DNA of 43,893 nucleotides, from NCBI GenBank assembly GCA_027062325.1, contig JAMOTN010000029.1:1-43893 (forward strand), read 5' to 3'. This stretch comes from a bacterium (lineage in GTDB: Bacteria > JAMOTN01). The notes below the pieces were generated by a model, which saw only the letters and a program-made list of their open reading frames with translations, searched no databases and was not told the origin of the DNA. The position numbers were made by a program, and so were the translations under genes. Position 1 is the first letter of the stretch. Each line of letters starts with the position of its first letter. Of this stretch, positions 34,639-43,893 are shown in pieces.

Positions 34639-34959
34639 ATGAAAATATCCCTTTATGAATTTATAGAGAAGTTATTCAACTCAGAATTCAAACTCACTGT
34701 CGTATTCAAAGGTGAAAACGAAGAAAACACCTATTACGCTTTCGTTCACAACAGAAAAAATATACTCATACCCGTTACCAAACTTCCAAAATTATTTGTC
34801 GAAGCTTTCGAATATTTCTTAGAATTTAGAGGACTTGAAGAACCACCAAATCCAATTTTAGACCTAGCCGATTACTTTCAATTCGTAGTAGAAGAATTCA
34901 AAATAAAAAATGTCCCAATTTACGCAGAGATGCAGCTCATCTATCCCGACAAAACGTAA
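34639..34959 (+). CDS. Small acidic protein of unknown function
   Basis: The 106-aa product is not recognised. It has a mixed alpha/beta composition: ISLYEFIEKLFNSEFKLTVVF, a strand pair TYYAFVHNRKNILIPV, and helices KLFVEAFEYFLEF and DLADYFQFVVEEFK, the first read in parts. It has no signal peptide, cysteine or catalytic pattern. The ATG follows AAGGGGGTGG. The 3' end overlaps the Lon-SAVED gene tail to tail by 23 bases with no terminator between, so transcripts would collide. It is probably in an operon with the four-cysteine protein. Confidence 0.6.
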   Translation: MKISLYEFIEKLFNSEFKLTVVFKGENEENTYYAFVHNRKNILIPVTKLPKLFVEAFEYFLEFRGLEEPPNPILDLADYFQFVVEEFKIKNVPIYAEMQLIYPDKT

Positions 34960-36175
34960 GAACAATCTCGTACTTATCATTGCTACTAACATAGTTCAAG
35001 AGGTGAACCACTAATTCTGTCTTATATTTTACCATTAAAGCACTATTTACCCCGTGCAACTCTTTCCACAAACCAGCAACAAACCATCCACCTAAGTATA
35101 CTGCACCATCAACTCCAAGCATCAAATGAACAGTTTGCACTCTATTATTTCCTAAAATGCCTTTTATTAATTCACTCAATTCGTTAAAATACTTTGGAAA
35201 ATTTTTCAGGCAGCTTTCATGTAAAGCATCGCCACTTTCAAACCTGTAAATTTTCACATTTTCCTCTGGAAAACCATCTGGTGGGACATAAGCATTCATA
35301 CCTACCTTCTTATCACCATCTCCCCCAAAATAAACCCCAACAGGCTTTTTTTGTACTATACTAGGGTTAACACTCTTTCTCTCTTTTGACCTTAAAAGAA
35401 TAAACAACTCGTTCCTTTCAAACTTAACTAAAAATTTACCTATCCACTCCAACAAAAAATTCAATTTGACCCCTTTTCTCACTGTCCATTCATAAGTTTT
35501 TGTAAAATAAGTTAAAAGCGAAATGAATCTTCTTTCTTCTATTTTTCTACATTCAGGCAACTTTTTTAACAACTCAGCTTTCTTCTCATCGTGAGCTCTC
35601 TTCAAATACCCATCCTTTAAAACCCCTGTAAAGGCAAACTCTTCTAAATCTTCTCTTACTTCCAAACCTAAATTCTCAAAAATCGCAGAAACAAATCCTA
35701 TCAAAAATGCCAAATTCCATGACATACCTGTCAGTATCTTATGCAAACCAATATCAGTCAATTCAAATCCTAAAATCAACTCCATTTCTAACTCTTCAAA
35801 ATAATTGCTTTTTAAAACATCTATCCAAACCCTCTTATATCCCTTTTCCCTAAATAAAACTTTCTCCAATTCATCTCTTAACTTTTCCAGACCTCCCTCA
35901 AGCTCTTTTAACCATGAAAGTTTCTCTTTTCCTACATTAATTTTTTCTAAAATTCGCCCCAACTCTTTCTTATTGGCAACATTAAAAACCCATATCTTGT
36001 AAATATCCAACTCTTCATCCACAATTACTGGAAAATTCACCTTAGTAATACAGTTAGTCTCTAAAAAATCTATAAAATCTGCCCTCTCAGCTTTAAGTTT
36101 CCACAAACCGCCATTTTTAATCTTACCAGTAGTAAAATCACATTTCCATTCAAGGAAAATTAATCCACGTTCCAT
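34937..36175 (-). CDS. calpL: CalpL-like CRISPR-associated Lon-SAVED protease
   Basis: The 412-aa product shows two recognisable parts. Residues ~105-215 fit a Lon (S16) protease domain. GMSWNLAFLIGFVSAI around S152 matches the Lon GPSAGLAF nucleophile turn, and EFAFTGVLKDGYLKRAHDEKKAELL matches TGE...G...V...K..AA with K198 or K199 as catalytic lysine (quoted parts FAFTGVLKDGYL and HDEKKAEL). Residues ~275-412 fit a SAVED sensor: VGVYFGGDGD, then RVQTVHLMLGVDGAVYLGGW, the usual iHLFlA.P.alA..lG strand-helix. Known CalpL binds cyclic tetra-adenylate made by Cas10, oligomerises and cuts CalpT. It is last in the four-gene cassette, 19 bases after the MazF-like gene. Neither domain has been checked by profile search, but both patterns plus the neighbours agree. 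Confidence 0.72.
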   Translation of the reverse strand: MERGLIFLEWKCDFTTGKIKNGGLWKLKAERADFIDFLETNCITKVNFPVIVDEELDIYKIWVFNVANKKELGRILEKINVGKEKLSWLKELEGGLEKLRDELEKVLFREKGYKRVWIDVLKSNYFEELEMELILGFELTDIGLHKILTGMSWNLAFLIGFVSAIFENLGLEVREDLEEFAFTGVLKDGYLKRAHDEKKAELLKKLPECRKIEERRFISLLTYFTKTYEWTVRKGVKLNFLLEWIGKFLVKFERNELFILLRSKERKSVNPSIVQKKPVGVYFGGDGDKKVGMNAYVPPDGFPEENVKIYRFESGDALHESCLKNFPKYFNELSELIKGILGNNRVQTVHLMLGVDGAVYLGGWFVAGLWKELHGVNSALMVKYKTELVVHLLNYVSSNDKYEIVLTFCRDR

Positions 36176-36194
36176 CTCTATACCTCATAAATCC

Positions 36195-37226
36195 CTATAC
36201 TTCTTCAATATCAATCACAACTTCCCCTGCCTTCATAAGAGCAAACATAACTTTTAGTTCTTCTCCTTTTTGGGCATCTCCTTTATTATCTAAAATCAAT
36301 GGTAACATATCAATCTCAAACTCTAATTCATCTCTTTGATTATTCCTCTTGTTAATAAAAACCAACTTATATTTTCTTCCTCTCTCAAGTTTTTCCATAA
36401 CTTCGTCTAATATATCAATAAACAAACTAACCTTTTCTTTATACTCAACTAATTTAACCATCACCTTTTCAAATTTTTTAACTTTTTCTGGTCCTTCTGC
36501 AGCAGCCGCTAACACTATCCGTTCCTGTGGAGGACATAAGTAACTCTTTAAAACTTCATAAACTTTATTTAATACAATAACTTGAGCAGATTTACCCGAT
36601 AAAACAACCTGCTCTTTTTTTTTAACATCTGCAATTTCTAATAATTCGTCGAAATACACCAATTTCCAATTTATTTCAGCTAAGATTGATCTAACTTCTA
36701 ACCGAAAGTCTCCTTTTTTAAGGTACGGTATGCCCCGAGACAGAATAAAATGTTTTAGATCTACTGATAAAATTAAATTTGAAGCTTCTCCAACTCCTGT
36801 TAATTTTTTTATTACTTCCGCCACCTCTTCAGGAACATAAGAAACTAAATAGCAAATTTTCCTTATCGAATTCAAACTTAACGTGCAGACAGCATCTGTA
36901 AATACTGCCCACACTCCTCCTTTCATATCTCTTACCACCCAATCCTGCATATCCGCAAGAATGTGATATTTACTCACAAGCACCACATCTGCCATTTCTC
37001 CATCTTCATCTAATATCAAAATCCCAAAATCCTCAGCCCCCTCGAATACATATAAATCTCCTTCCGAAAAAATTACTGGATAATTTTTCTTCTCCTTCTC
37101 ATTTAACACTTCTAAATATTTTCCTTCAAACATTTCTTTCAAACTTCGTGCTTTTTCTAATATTTCCTCCTCATTATATTTTCCTAATATTTCCTCAACC
37201 TTTCTCTTTAATGCTTCCAACTTCAT
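36195..37226 (-). CDS. calpT: CalpT-like protein with MazF-like domain (putative anti-sigma target of the protease)
   Basis: This 343-aa protein has a helical N-terminus (about 1-45). The second zone resembles MazF/PemK: EGDLYVFEGAEDFGILILDE near 54-73 for the opening strand, and VFTDAVCTLSLNSIRKICYL followed by VPEEVAEVIKKL near 108-142 for the MazF ending (DqirT.s..rl..k.g.ls.ee..ev...L). The remaining 200 residues are mixed helices and strands, with a helical stretch KKFEKVMVKLVEYKEKVSLF. In the characterised pathway, CalpT combines a MazF-like part with a segment that holds the sigma factor inactive until CalpL cuts it. Here the gene lies between the sigma-like and protease genes, exactly as that role requires. 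No MazF toxin residues are claimed. Confidence 0.6.
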   Translation of the reverse strand: MKLEALKRKVEEILGKYNEEEILEKARSLKEMFEGKYLEVLNEKEKKNYPVIFSEGDLYVFEGAEDFGILILDEDGEMADVVLVSKYHILADMQDWVVRDMKGGVWAVFTDAVCTLSLNSIRKICYLVSYVPEEVAEVIKKLTGVGEASNLILSVDLKHFILSRGIPYLKKGDFRLEVRSILAEINWKLVYFDELLEIADVKKKEQVVLSGKSAQVIVLNKVYEVLKSYLCPPQERIVLAAAAEGPEKVKKFEKVMVKLVEYKEKVSLFIDILDEVMEKLERGRKYKLVFINKRNNQRDELEFEIDMLPLILDNKGDAQKGEELKVMFALMKAGEVVIDIEEV

Positions 37227-37281
37227 CGCTGACCCCTCCCTGCTTAGTAGTTTGTCTTAAAGCTTCTCCATTTTGTAGGAC

Positions 37282-38127
37282 CTATGTAACTACCTTCTTG
37301 TGACAAAACAATTTTTTAATTTTTTCCCAGCACAACTTCGCACTTTCAAACTCCAACTTATCTAACTCTTCTTTGGCAATTTCTTGCATCTCCTCACTAC
37401 ACAAATACAAAGCAATTAAACATTCCTCGACTACTTCAGATAATTCTTCTTCTGCTAAGAAAAACTCTTTCCATTCTTCTTCAACAGTTTTCCAAAACTC
37501 CTTTAACTTTTTCTCAGCTCTTGACTTCTGCTTTCTAGCAACCGCAGGCATAGAAAATTTATAAATTTCTCTGCACTCATCAACAACACTGTGAATACCT
37601 CTCACAATATTTTTTAACATCGTCCAAAACATTCCTACCAATTCAGCAGGAGTAAAATTTAGGAACTTTTTCATCTCTTCAATAAATGCTTCATAGTAAT
37701 CAAGCTGAGGAATAGAAAACTTCTTATTCAAATTCTCTAATTTCTCAATATCCAACTTTTCATTATCATCCAAACTATCAATCTGTAGCTGATACTTTTT
37801 CTTCTCTTCTTCCAAATAGCTTGACCAACTATGAATAACAGTGGTTTTGAAATAATTATAATATTTACCCCACTCTCCAGATTTCGGATCAAATGCCAAG
37901 GTTTTATTTTTCATTGCTTTCTCAATTTTATGCAAGTACTTATCAATAAAATCCTCTATTATTAAGAATGGCAAATCTGGAAATTTTTTTCTGATAATTT
38001 TAACCATAATTTTTTCAACACTATTTTGCAACTCTGCTACTGCCTTCAGACTAACACCAGCATTTTCATCATGCAAAATCCTAAAATAATAGTAGAGTAC
38101 ATGAGCCGGAGTTTCCTTCCTATTCAC
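37282..38127 (-). CDS. calpS: CalpS-like sigma-70 family (ECF-type) factor
   Basis: This protein of about 281 aa looks like a two-domain sigma factor with a long C-terminal helical extension. Region 2 is suggested by LIIEDFIDKYLHKIEKAM, then AFDPKSGEWGKYYNYFKTTV and IHSWSSYLEEEKKK, parallel to the ECF pattern (D..qe.fl.........FDp..G.f..wl..ia.n...d.lR). Region 4 ends in FSMPAVARKQKSRAEKKLKEF, the familiar SxxTVKSRLxRARKKLRE recognition helix (quoted as MPAVARKQKSRAEKKL). I choose the GTG at 38127, eight bases after AAGGAG. The GTG at 38136 overlaps that site. If correct, release of this factor would redirect RNA polymerase after phage sensing. The promoter it reads is unknown. Confidence 0.6.
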   Translation of the reverse strand: MNRKETPAHVLYYYFRILHDENAGVSLKAVAELQNSVEKIMVKIIRKKFPDLPFLIIEDFIDKYLHKIEKAMKNKTLAFDPKSGEWGKYYNYFKTTVIHSWSSYLEEEKKKYQLQIDSLDDNEKLDIEKLENLNKKFSIPQLDYYEAFIEEMKKFLNFTPAELVGMFWTMLKNIVRGIHSVVDECREIYKFSMPAVARKQKSRAEKKLKEFWKTVEEEWKEFFLAEEELSEVVEECLIALYLCSEEMQEIAKEELDKLEFESAKLCWEKIKKLFCHKKVVT

Positions 38128-38155
38128 TGTAATCACTCCTTCAAAATAGTACTAT

Positions 38156-38827
38156 TTATTCAACAGCTAAAACTCTCTCAATAAACTTCAAAGCTTCCCT
38201 TCTCCCTCCAAACATTTTTATCAAATCAACTCCATGTTTTCTCGCGCATTCTCTAAATACGCTTTCACTTTTTCTAATATAATTCCAATATCTACTATTC
38301 AAGTAAATTTTCCTCACCCTTTTCTTTTTAGGATTAATTCCTATGTAACTAGCATTTTCCATCAAATACTCCCTACATTCTCCCTCAATACTAACCATAT
38401 CCCATTTAACAGATAAAAGATCAATTTTCAAATTTTTTACTCCTAGAAATTTAGGATAACTTGTAAGAAACAGTAATCGCTCTCCTTTTAAAAACCTCCA
38501 CCTTAAAACTGGTCGCCTGTCTTTATTCCCTAACCATCTCTCTACAACCTCTCTCAACTCTTGAGGCAAATTTTTATCAAACCTCCAGAAAATCTTATTT
38601 TTCAAATACCCAAACGTCACTGTTGAATTTTTCTCAACAATTCTAATAATCTCATCATCTGACATCTTTTTCTTAAACTTAAACTTTCTCCTATTCCTAA
38701 ATTTAACATTCCTTTTATTCTTACTTCTCTTAGTAGTTTCTCCATCCTCACTATCGCCACTTGAGCTAAAAATAAAATAACCAGCCGCCATTAACATCCC
38801 CAAAATTACTCCACCTAAACCGTTCAT
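38156..38827 (-). CDS. Membrane-anchored basic protein, first gene of the Calp-like cassette
   Basis: I do not recognise this 223-aa protein. A single N-terminal membrane helix (LGGVILGMLMAAGYFIF, about residues 4-20) is followed by an acidic spacer and a very basic stretch (KRSKNKRNVKFRNRRKFKFK). The globular part of ~165 residues is rich in Arg, Lys, Trp and Tyr (VLRWRFLKGERLLFLTSYPK, IYLNSRYWNYIRKSESVF). The strong positive charge suggests contact with nucleic acid or lipid headgroups. GGGGGGA precedes the ATG. It is followed at 28 bases by the sigma-like gene, so it is co-transcribed with it. It is not part of the published three-gene pathway and may be an added membrane component. Confidence 0.65.
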   Translation of the reverse strand: MNGLGGVILGMLMAAGYFIFSSSGDSEDGETTKRSKNKRNVKFRNRRKFKFKKKMSDDEIIRIVEKNSTVTFGYLKNKIFWRFDKNLPQELREVVERWLGNKDRRPVLRWRFLKGERLLFLTSYPKFLGVKNLKIDLLSVKWDMVSIEGECREYLMENASYIGINPKKKRVRKIYLNSRYWNYIRKSESVFRECARKHGVDLIKMFGGRREALKFIERVLAVE

Positions 38828-39037: not shown

Positions 39038-39361
39038 CTACGCAATAATACCAGAAAACTTATTCTTAAAGTAATTCTCAACTTTCCTTAAATTTGCCTT
39101 AACTTTATTCAACACTTTGTCTTCAACAGATGTTATAAACAAATTGTCATCCTCATCCAATATTTTCTCAAGCTCTTTTAACACCTTATCAAGTTGCCTC
39201 TTTGACAAGTAACATGCAAACACACTGAACTGAACATCAACACCATACCTTCTAAGTAACTCCAAAATTTTTCTATCCTTTTTAGAATACCTAGTCCTAT
39301 CTTTCGCTCTAATATCATAAGATATGATGTAAATCTTTTTAGAAACCGTCATACATATCAC
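39038..39361 (-). CDS. cas2: Cas2, divergent second copy
   Basis: This 107-aa ferredoxin-like Cas2 is the non-catalytic dimer that bridges two Cas1 dimers during spacer integration. The first strand YIISYDI with its conserved Asp, the ELLRRYGVDVQFSVFACYL helix-strand and the LITSVED-like ending (read FITSVED) are typical. A basic C-terminal tail (VKANLRKVENYFKNKF) is longer than usual. A GTG start with AGAGG close ahead, or an ATG three codons later, are both possible. It lies downstream of the 473-aa gene and is clearly different in sequence from the Cas2 at 40890-41153, so it is not a recent duplicate. Confidence 0.85.
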   Translation of the reverse strand: MICMTVSKKIYIISYDIRAKDRTRYSKKDRKILELLRRYGVDVQFSVFACYLSKRQLDKVLKELEKILDEDDNLFITSVEDKVLNKVKANLRKVENYFKNKFSGIIA

Positions 39362-39423: not shown

Positions 39424-40845
39424 TCACTTTAACACTTCAAGCACATCCTTGTACAAACGCTTCAACTCATTACTCCTATAGTAAAAACCTGCTAAATTAA
39501 GCAAAACGTTCCCAGGAACAACGTAACTAACAAACCAATTAATAAAACTTTTGATCTGACCATTTAAAATTATCCTATAAGAAAACACCTCATCATCTAT
39601 CCAGTTCACTAATTCCTGAGCAAACGAAGAGAAAGTTTTGCTCCCCAACTCTTCCGCCAAGAAAAAGTTTGCTTCCCACAAACTTGAATCACCCTCACTC
39701 CACGAAGGAACATCTAAAAATCTAAATGCCACCATTAAAGCCAAATACTCCAACAAATCATCTCTAAACTCTGTATCCTTTAGCATCTGCTCTATAAATC
39801 CCACAACCAAGATTAGCAATGAAAAGTAAGCAAATCCAAACATATCAAATGCATTAACGTGGAAAAACCAAAGTTCTTTTTTACTCATATCATCGTAATG
39901 ACTCTGTCTAACAACACGTTTAATTTCGTTAACAAATCCTCTTAAAAATCTGTTAATTCCATAAGCCGAAAAAGTACCATTTCCAAGTGTATCCAGCTCC
40001 CCCAAAAACCATTCCAACTCATGTCTAACTTTCAACTCCCACTTAAATAACCCTATCAAATCAGAGCTCTTGTTTAGAGAATGCCTAAAAACTTTATTGT
40101 AACCTCCCCAACTGAACACCTCATCGGAAAACGCAGTATAACACCTACCAATCAACTTTTTATATTCATACTTATATTCATCAAGTATCCTCAACATCTG
40201 CTCTTCAGCAGGAGATAAATTGTGCTTCCCCCTTAAGAACTCGTAAAACGGCTTTCTGTAGTTCGCCCACCACTGCTTACGTATTCTCTCTTTCTCCTTA
40301 GCCCTGCCTCTCTTATCCAAAACCTTTTTCAACTCTCCATAGCTCATTTCATTCCACGTAACTTTAGCAACAATACTCTTTACCCGCCTCAAAAAAGTAT
40401 CAACTTTTTTTCTCATAGGTGTTACTGCCTCAGTCAAACTTCTGAACAAATCCGCTATATTTGGAGTTTTTAATCTATCAAGCATAAACATGTAATTTAA
40501 GCAATCAAAATTCACACAGTAGTTGTAAAACTCCCTCGCCAAATCAACGTTCTGCTTCAAAAAAGCATTTTTTAACTCTTCACGTTCTCTGCTGCTCACC
40601 CTCCTACTAATAGGAGTTACACGCTTAAATAATCCCAAGCAATTTCCAGCAAATTCCCACCTAGCATCAACTTCCCAAAAAACATCATCCGTCAGCCTAA
40701 ATTTATACTTTCCATCATCTCTTTTAACCAATAAACGTTCTATTTGCGGCACTACAATTTTGACAGTTCGAGGTTTAGTTCTTTTCTTACGATTTATAAG
40801 AACTCCAGCAACTTTTCCTAGAAACTCCAATATTCCCATTCTCAT
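39424..40845 (-). CDS. Unrecognised 473-aa protein lodged between two cas2 genes
   Basis: I recognise no Cas family here. The protein begins with a short amphipathic stretch (MGILEFLGKVAGVLIN) and a strongly basic segment (RKKRTKPRTVK). It is then largely helical, rich in Trp, Phe, Tyr and Arg: SSREREELKNAFLKQNVDLA, RIRKQWWANYRKPFYEFLRG, KELWFFHVNAFDMFGF. A hydrophobic helix (FAYFSLLILVVGFIEQML) lies near residue 350. I see no HD, GGDD, RuvC, HNH, PD-ExK or helicase signature, no RAMP glycine loop, and no reverse-transcriptase motif. It is transcribed with cas1 and cas2, 44 bases after the first cas2. Its place inside the adaptation genes suggests a helper of spacer capture or processing. Confidence 0.7.
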   Translation of the reverse strand: MRMGILEFLGKVAGVLINRKKRTKPRTVKIVVPQIERLLVKRDDGKYKFRLTDDVFWEVDARWEFAGNCLGLFKRVTPISRRVSSREREELKNAFLKQNVDLAREFYNYCVNFDCLNYMFMLDRLKTPNIADLFRSLTEAVTPMRKKVDTFLRRVKSIVAKVTWNEMSYGELKKVLDKRGRAKEKERIRKQWWANYRKPFYEFLRGKHNLSPAEEQMLRILDEYKYEYKKLIGRCYTAFSDEVFSWGGYNKVFRHSLNKSSDLIGLFKWELKVRHELEWFLGELDTLGNGTFSAYGINRFLRGFVNEIKRVVRQSHYDDMSKKELWFFHVNAFDMFGFAYFSLLILVVGFIEQMLKDTEFRDDLLEYLALMVAFRFLDVPSWSEGDSSLWEANFFLAEELGSKTFSSFAQELVNWIDDEVFSYRIILNGQIKSFINWFVSYVVPGNVLLNLAGFYYRSNELKRLYKDVLEVLK

Positions 40846-43223: not shown

Positions 43224-43893
43224 GTTTCATTGCCGAACACTTACTAACGGATTACGACATATATCGCCCTCGTAGAGGGCTACGGAAATTCTCACAGTTT
43301 CATTGCCGAACACTTACTAACGGATTACGACCGAGTTCCCCTCGCTTCGGGTGTCCCCCCTTTGGGTTTCATTGCCGAACACTTACTAACGGATTACGAC
43401 AAACTAAACACTCTAGGTTTTACGGCAAAAGCATTTGTGTTTCATTGCCGAACACTTACTAACGGATTACGACGGGCTCGGGCGGGGTCCCGGGGCTTTT
43501 GCCCCCGCGCGGTTTCATTGCCGAACACTTACTAACGGATTACGACCCCCGACGCCCCAGTTGGGGGTGTTGGGGGCTCGTCGGTTTCATTGCCGAACAC
43601 TTACTAACGGATTACGACCGGTTTCCTTTTTTATGTTCCCTTTTGCAGCTGTGAGAGCCCGGGCCCCGCACCCGAGCTCCCATACGACCGGTTTCCTTTT
43701 TTATGTTCCCTTTTGCAGTTTCTGTTTCATTGCCGAACACTTACTAACGGATTACGACGAGTCTTCGACTCCCTTATTTATTTATAATGAAAAGTTTCAT
43801 TGCCGAACACTTACTAACGGATTACGACGTGAGGTCGCGGCCGCGGTCCTCAGGCCTAAGCCTGAGTTTCATTGCCGAACACTTACTAACGGA
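43224..43893 (-). CRISPR. CRISPR array, eight full repeats plus one cut by the edge
   Basis: Identical 35-base repeats begin GTTTCATTGCCG and end CGGATTACGAC. They start at 43224, 43297, 43366, 43439, 43512, 43584, 43724, 43794 and 43866 (the last partial, 28 bases). Spacers are 34-38 bases, except the interval 43619-43723, which is 105 bases and contains a rearrangement. Read on the minus strand the repeat ends in AATGAAAC, a form of the ATTGAAAC tag typical of crRNA 5' handles. I therefore infer that the crRNA is transcribed right to left and that the leader lies beyond the window. The array is next to cas1 and probably belongs to it. The type cannot be fixed without the effector genes. Confidence 0.97.

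Follow-up and report, generated by a model that had tools for sequence, protein, structure and literature searches.

An orphan gene amid the tandem cas2 genes of a divergent CRISPR module linked to type III-A: a tentative candidate for an accessory adaptation factor

In the 43,893-nt stretch of DNA analysed here (the window), which comes from a deep-branching bacterium, the orphan gene orf473 separates two cas2 genes in a CRISPR adaptation operon. This operon is an adaptation module of the type III-A-linked kind, and a divergent one. Our preferred reading, held tentatively and at somewhat under an even chance, is that orf473 is a lineage-specific, optional accessory adaptation factor that became inserted between the cas2 genes of this module.

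On the minus strand the genes run cas1 - cas2a - orf473 - cas2b, beside a CRISPR array (Table 1), and the Pfam matches bear out an earlier note on this DNA, which had put orf473 behind cas1 and between two cas2 genes. The window is one contig (C29) of an assembly of 1.65 Mb in 81 contigs, 84% complete, whose single cas1 and two cas2 genes all lie at this locus; cas2b and cas2a are 25% identical. The genes are separated by gaps of 34 nt (cas1/cas2a), 44 nt (cas2a/orf473) and 62 nt (orf473/cas2b), with no terminator predicted between any of them. A single transcript carrying all four is plausible; the earlier note had asserted one outright, which is too firm for what is a prediction, although the lack of predicted terminators agrees with it. 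Its description of the position as tight was overstated, since the 44-nt and 62-nt gaps compare with genes that abut or overlap by 4 nt in the two nearest relatives. No repeat pair was found flanking orf473, nor is there an adjoining gene for a transposase or integrase.

Table 1. Features of the adaptation locus and its surroundings, with positions in the window
Feature	Positions	Strand	Evidence and remarks
orf412, ORFan	34937-36175	minus	context; no family or PDB match, nor a relative in viruses or plasmids
orf343, ORFan	36195-37226	minus	context; no family or PDB match; no viral relative
orf284, ORFan	37282-38136	minus	context; no family or PDB match
orf223, ORFan	38156-38827	minus	~210 nt downstream of cas2b; no matching family or PDB entry
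cas2b, 107 aa, second divergent Cas2	39038-39361	minus	Pfam PF09827, 2.6e-15
orf473, orphan	39424-40845	minus	473 codons; ORF call, composition and start context
cas2a, 87 aa	40890-41153	minus	Pfam PF09827, 1.4e-16
cas1, 535 aa	41188-42795	minus	Pfam Cas_Cas1 PF01867, 1.7e-28
CRISPR array, 35-nt repeat GTCGTAATCCGTTAGTAAGTGTTCGGCAATGAAAC	43224-43893	minus	cas1-proximal end; cut by contig end

The 473-aa gene of the earlier note, to which a strand can now be added, is one uninterrupted reading frame; on the plus strand, 21 stops fall within these positions. Chance would not produce a frame of this length: in shuffled 8-kb sequence the longest stop-free run had a mean of 119 codons and a maximum of 222. 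A Shine-Dalgarno-like AGGA suits Met3 better than Met1, so that the product is probably of 471 aa. Codon usage is host-like (codon score 0.202, within the range of resident genes) and, together with the intact long frame, argues against a recent foreign import. The protein is basic (pI 9.4), with a net charge of +11 in residues 1-50 and again +11 in residues 151-200, and aromatic residues make up 15.4% of it. It has one hydrophobic helix at residues 333-351, whose 19-residue Kyte-Doolittle mean of 2.11 is within the range of the membrane proteins of the window. The basic N-terminus, many aromatics and hydrophobic helix described earlier are thus all confirmed. Single-sequence structure predictions had pLDDT values of 37.3 for the full protein and 44.0 for residues 255-473, too poor for fold comparison; these low-confidence models are nearly all-alpha.

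The module was compared with two type III-A loci that likewise carry a single cas1 with two cas2 genes after it, all on one strand: L107, from a Desulfurellales MAG and found by a Cas1 profile scan built from two sequences, and L063, from genome G298. The window Cas1 groups with these two in a tree of 41 Cas1 proteins (95/89), a placing made unsure by its end branch of 3.13. Cas2a groups with the Cas2 proteins of L063/L107 (90/93), and cas2b could not be placed in the Cas2 tree; Cas1 and both Cas2 proteins of the window have very long branches. The catalytic residues E227, H294, D306 and E309 are kept in the window Cas1 (alignment A1). It is longer than its relatives by about 200 aa (535 aa, compared with 315-333 aa in L107 and L063), having an N-terminal extension and internal insertions. 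The insertions include a low-complexity stretch near residues 345-390, GNNEKNERRNCNSNSESCSKND, which is missing from the relatives. The link to type III-A csm genes is also shared, but in L107 and L063 these lie beside the adaptation genes, whereas in the genome of the window they are on other contigs. Type III modules with RT-Cas1 or Cas6-RT-Cas1 align weakly with the window Cas1 core (best PDB match 7kft, 3.1e-06); they have an RT domain, whereas the window Cas1 has none and its genome gives no RVT_1 match.

The relatives also differ from the window in gene order. In L063 and L107 the cas1-cas2-cas2 genes are contiguous, overlapping by ~4 nt or abutting, and lack orf473, whereas in the window orf473 is present and the gaps are 34-62 nt. 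Among 40 fetched cas1 loci, 25 had a detected cas2 next to cas1, and the only gene ever found to intervene was a second cas2. All three cas1-linked tandem cas2 pairs (L063, L107 and L083) are contiguous, whereas the window pair is split by orf473; we therefore call the window module a variant, rather than a plain member, of the type III-A-linked cas1-cas2-cas2 modules. Because orf473 interrupts an otherwise contiguous trio, a later insertion in the lineage of the window is the simplest history, and orf473 was probably added late to the module. The arrangement of a lone cas1 with tandem cas2 genes is seen repeatedly, in genomes unrelated to one another (L063, L107 and L083). The two Cas2 proteins of a pair are different, suggesting either Cas2 heterodimers or a division of tasks.

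Effector genes are on other contigs of the assembly. Contig C25 encodes Csm2, Csm3, Cas6, Cas10, Csm4 and a second Csm3, and contig C49 a second Cas10; the cas10 genes carry GGDD motifs. The effectors of C25 (L026:7350-15084) form two opposite-strand blocks, with Csm3 and Csm2 on the minus strand and Cas6, Cas10, Csm4 and the second Csm3 on the plus strand. The repeat of the window array also ends contig C76, and from this shared repeat C29 and C76 appear to join at the array. Adjoining the other end of the same repeat, C76 encodes a 510-aa protein (L012:13833-15365) that weakly matches Csx1/Csm6 (CARF-HEPN) and has a motif resembling RNxxxxH. No match to reverse transcriptase (PF00078, RVT_1) was found in this 84%-complete genome, and the earlier proposal that orf473 might serve the choice of RNA-derived spacers is left unsupported.

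Searches with orf473 itself were negative throughout. Profile searches against Pfam, NCBIfam, PADLOC and PHROGs gave no credible match and a PDB sequence search gave nothing, in keeping with the earlier view that the protein has no known Cas signature; chance-level matches to YukC (0.013) and ribosomal L30 (0.0026) were rejected. Plasmids, phages, viral contigs and GTDB genome contigs (a close-relative scan, 85,000 species) likewise yielded nothing in protein scans, which rely on exact short peptides and so detect close relatives only. No credible homologue was found in whole genomes (59, then 386), all of them related to the source at domain level only; chance-level matches there, e.g. to aminopeptidase and guanylate kinase, several with stops, were rejected. 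A phmmer match to the Csm3 of L063 (0.009) was rejected as well, as it pairs 58 residues of a RAMP protein with a predicted-helical segment. The earlier note had proposed conservation in cas1 neighbourhoods as a test: L063 and L107 are without orf473, and a homologue beside cas1 was found in 0 of the 40 fetched loci and 0 of the 386 genomes, none of the compared genomes being closer than the same domain. Since the lineage is poorly sampled and the contig scans see close relatives only, the missing homologues are weak evidence.

In our preferred reading, orf473 would be made together with Cas1, Cas2a and Cas2b and would act as an optional accessory of the Cas1-Cas2 integrase. In its likeliest form, a basic protein made of helices, it would hold prespacer DNA or present it, or else link the complex to some further component, without carrying out a catalytic step. 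Prespacer capture by Cas1-Cas2 and integration at the repeat, the core of the reaction, would run as they do in other type III systems. This reading is supported by the place of orf473 between the cas2 genes and behind the only cas1, on the same strand and with no predicted terminator between; by its protein, which is basic, rich in predicted helix and positively charged in the N-terminal and 151-200 segments; and by the kept catalytic residues of Cas1 and the presence in the genome of type III-A effectors and a CARF-HEPN-like protein. In a large survey, varied unexpected genes, among them genes for transmembrane-domain proteins, turned up in linkage with adaptation modules (PMC10910872), and orf473 is like the adaptation-linked genes of that terascale CRISPR survey, which are unexpected and some of which have transmembrane domains. 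According to a review, direct type III adaptation needs no more than Cas1 and Cas2 in all tested systems (PMC9048733). Our reading is weakened by the sister modules L063 and L107, which manage without orf473, by the loose spacing (44 and 62 nt), and by the lack of a homologue, domain, motif or usable model of the protein. Orf473 may have a dedicated role in spacer capture. The case for such a role is at present its position, and the comparisons at hand lean against one that is conserved.

The positional argument is further weakened by what lies downstream. Four consecutive same-strand ORFans (34937-38827) follow the cas genes, and the site may simply gather unrelated genes. No Pfam match was found for any of the five non-cas ORFs of the block (orf473 and these four), compared with 7 of 30 genes lacking a match elsewhere in the window (hypergeometric 0.002), which favours a site that gathers fast-evolving or acquired genes. 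Orf223, the first gene downstream of cas2b, is at most a candidate member of the module. Orf284 has by eye a partial look of sigma-70 region 2, which no profile backs. A similarity between orf473 and orf343 (E 0.012-0.018 in a nine-protein comparison) was judged to be chance among the pairs tested.

The same ORFan neighbours speak for a CRISPR-linked ancillary defence gene, with orf473 working in the immune response, e.g. as a membrane-associated effector or abortive-infection protein of the type III locus. The hydrophobic helix, with its membrane-protein-like Kyte-Doolittle mean, would suit such a protein, as would the presence of a CARF-HEPN effector (weak matches) beside the same repeat and of cas10 genes with GGDD motifs. 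However, a lone hydrophobic stretch can be a buried helix, profile searches found no CARF, SAVED, HEPN or nuclease signature in orf473, and the gene lies inside the adaptation genes, not beside cas10. We regard this explanation as unlikely, though by no means negligible.

Orf473 might instead be a passenger, an unrelated gene that landed by chance between the cas2 genes and was retained as harmless. Such an origin fits its absence from the two nearest modules with their overlapping or abutting trio, the loose spacing and ORFan cluster at the window locus, and the failure to find a relative anywhere searched. It fits less well with a frame that is intact over its full length, is read from the operon's coding strand and has resident codon usage, or with the lack of a flanking repeat pair and of an adjoining transposase or integrase gene, and breaking an overlapping trio should carry some cost. 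We think this improbable but worth serious consideration, to the same degree as the defence-gene reading.

A bolder version of an adaptation role is that orf473 founds a new family working with the two-Cas2 integrase, e.g. selecting folded (hairpin) DNA as prespacers; we give this only a slim chance. Type III-A systems that lack a reverse transcriptase reportedly favour hairpin-forming DNA, and whether type III Cas1-Cas2 alone recognises hairpins or needs a further element is left open in the same review (PMC9048733). Spacer hairpins occur in the window array (within 43259-43865), e.g. GCCCTC-TAC-GAGGGC and TCAGGC-TTAG-GCCTGA, and the G+C content of many spacers is far above the 37% of the window. 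The longest stems of the eight spacers sum to 38, compared with 32.7 in shuffles (p 0.037) and 31.9 in host segments (p 0.031), a marginal excess, suggestive at most, for which orf473 is not required. The array also has an odd unit at 43584-43751, in which the spacer CTGCAAAAGGGAACATAAAAAAGGAAACCG is present twice; between the copies the repeat is replaced after GTCGTA by a ~34-nt G+C-rich, partly palindromic sequence. This unit is either an assembly error or an aberrant integration.

That orf473 is a known adaptation component diverged out of recognition (a Cas4-like nuclease, a Csn2-like clamp or reverse transcriptase remains) is very unlikely: fast evolution, as in the very long branches of Cas1 and both Cas2 proteins, could erase homology, and the best solved-structure match of the Cas1 core is a Cas6-RT-Cas1 chain, if a weak one, but the protein is predicted to be all-helical without a nuclease or polymerase core, finds no Cas4, Csn2 or RT profile in Pfam, NCBIfam or PADLOC at E values up to 1, and lies in a genome with no PF00078 match, while Cas4, Csn2 and RT are missing from the nearest modules. 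Taking HYDD (residues 316-319) for the mark of a divergent reverse transcriptase was rejected, as it is not YxDD, its region is predicted to be helical and the genome has no RVT_1.

Should orf473 indeed act in adaptation, a two-Cas2 type III integrase would have a new accessory, one that bears on prespacer choice in type III systems. As a passenger or a linked defence gene, orf473 would instead add one more case of CRISPR loci gathering orphan genes.
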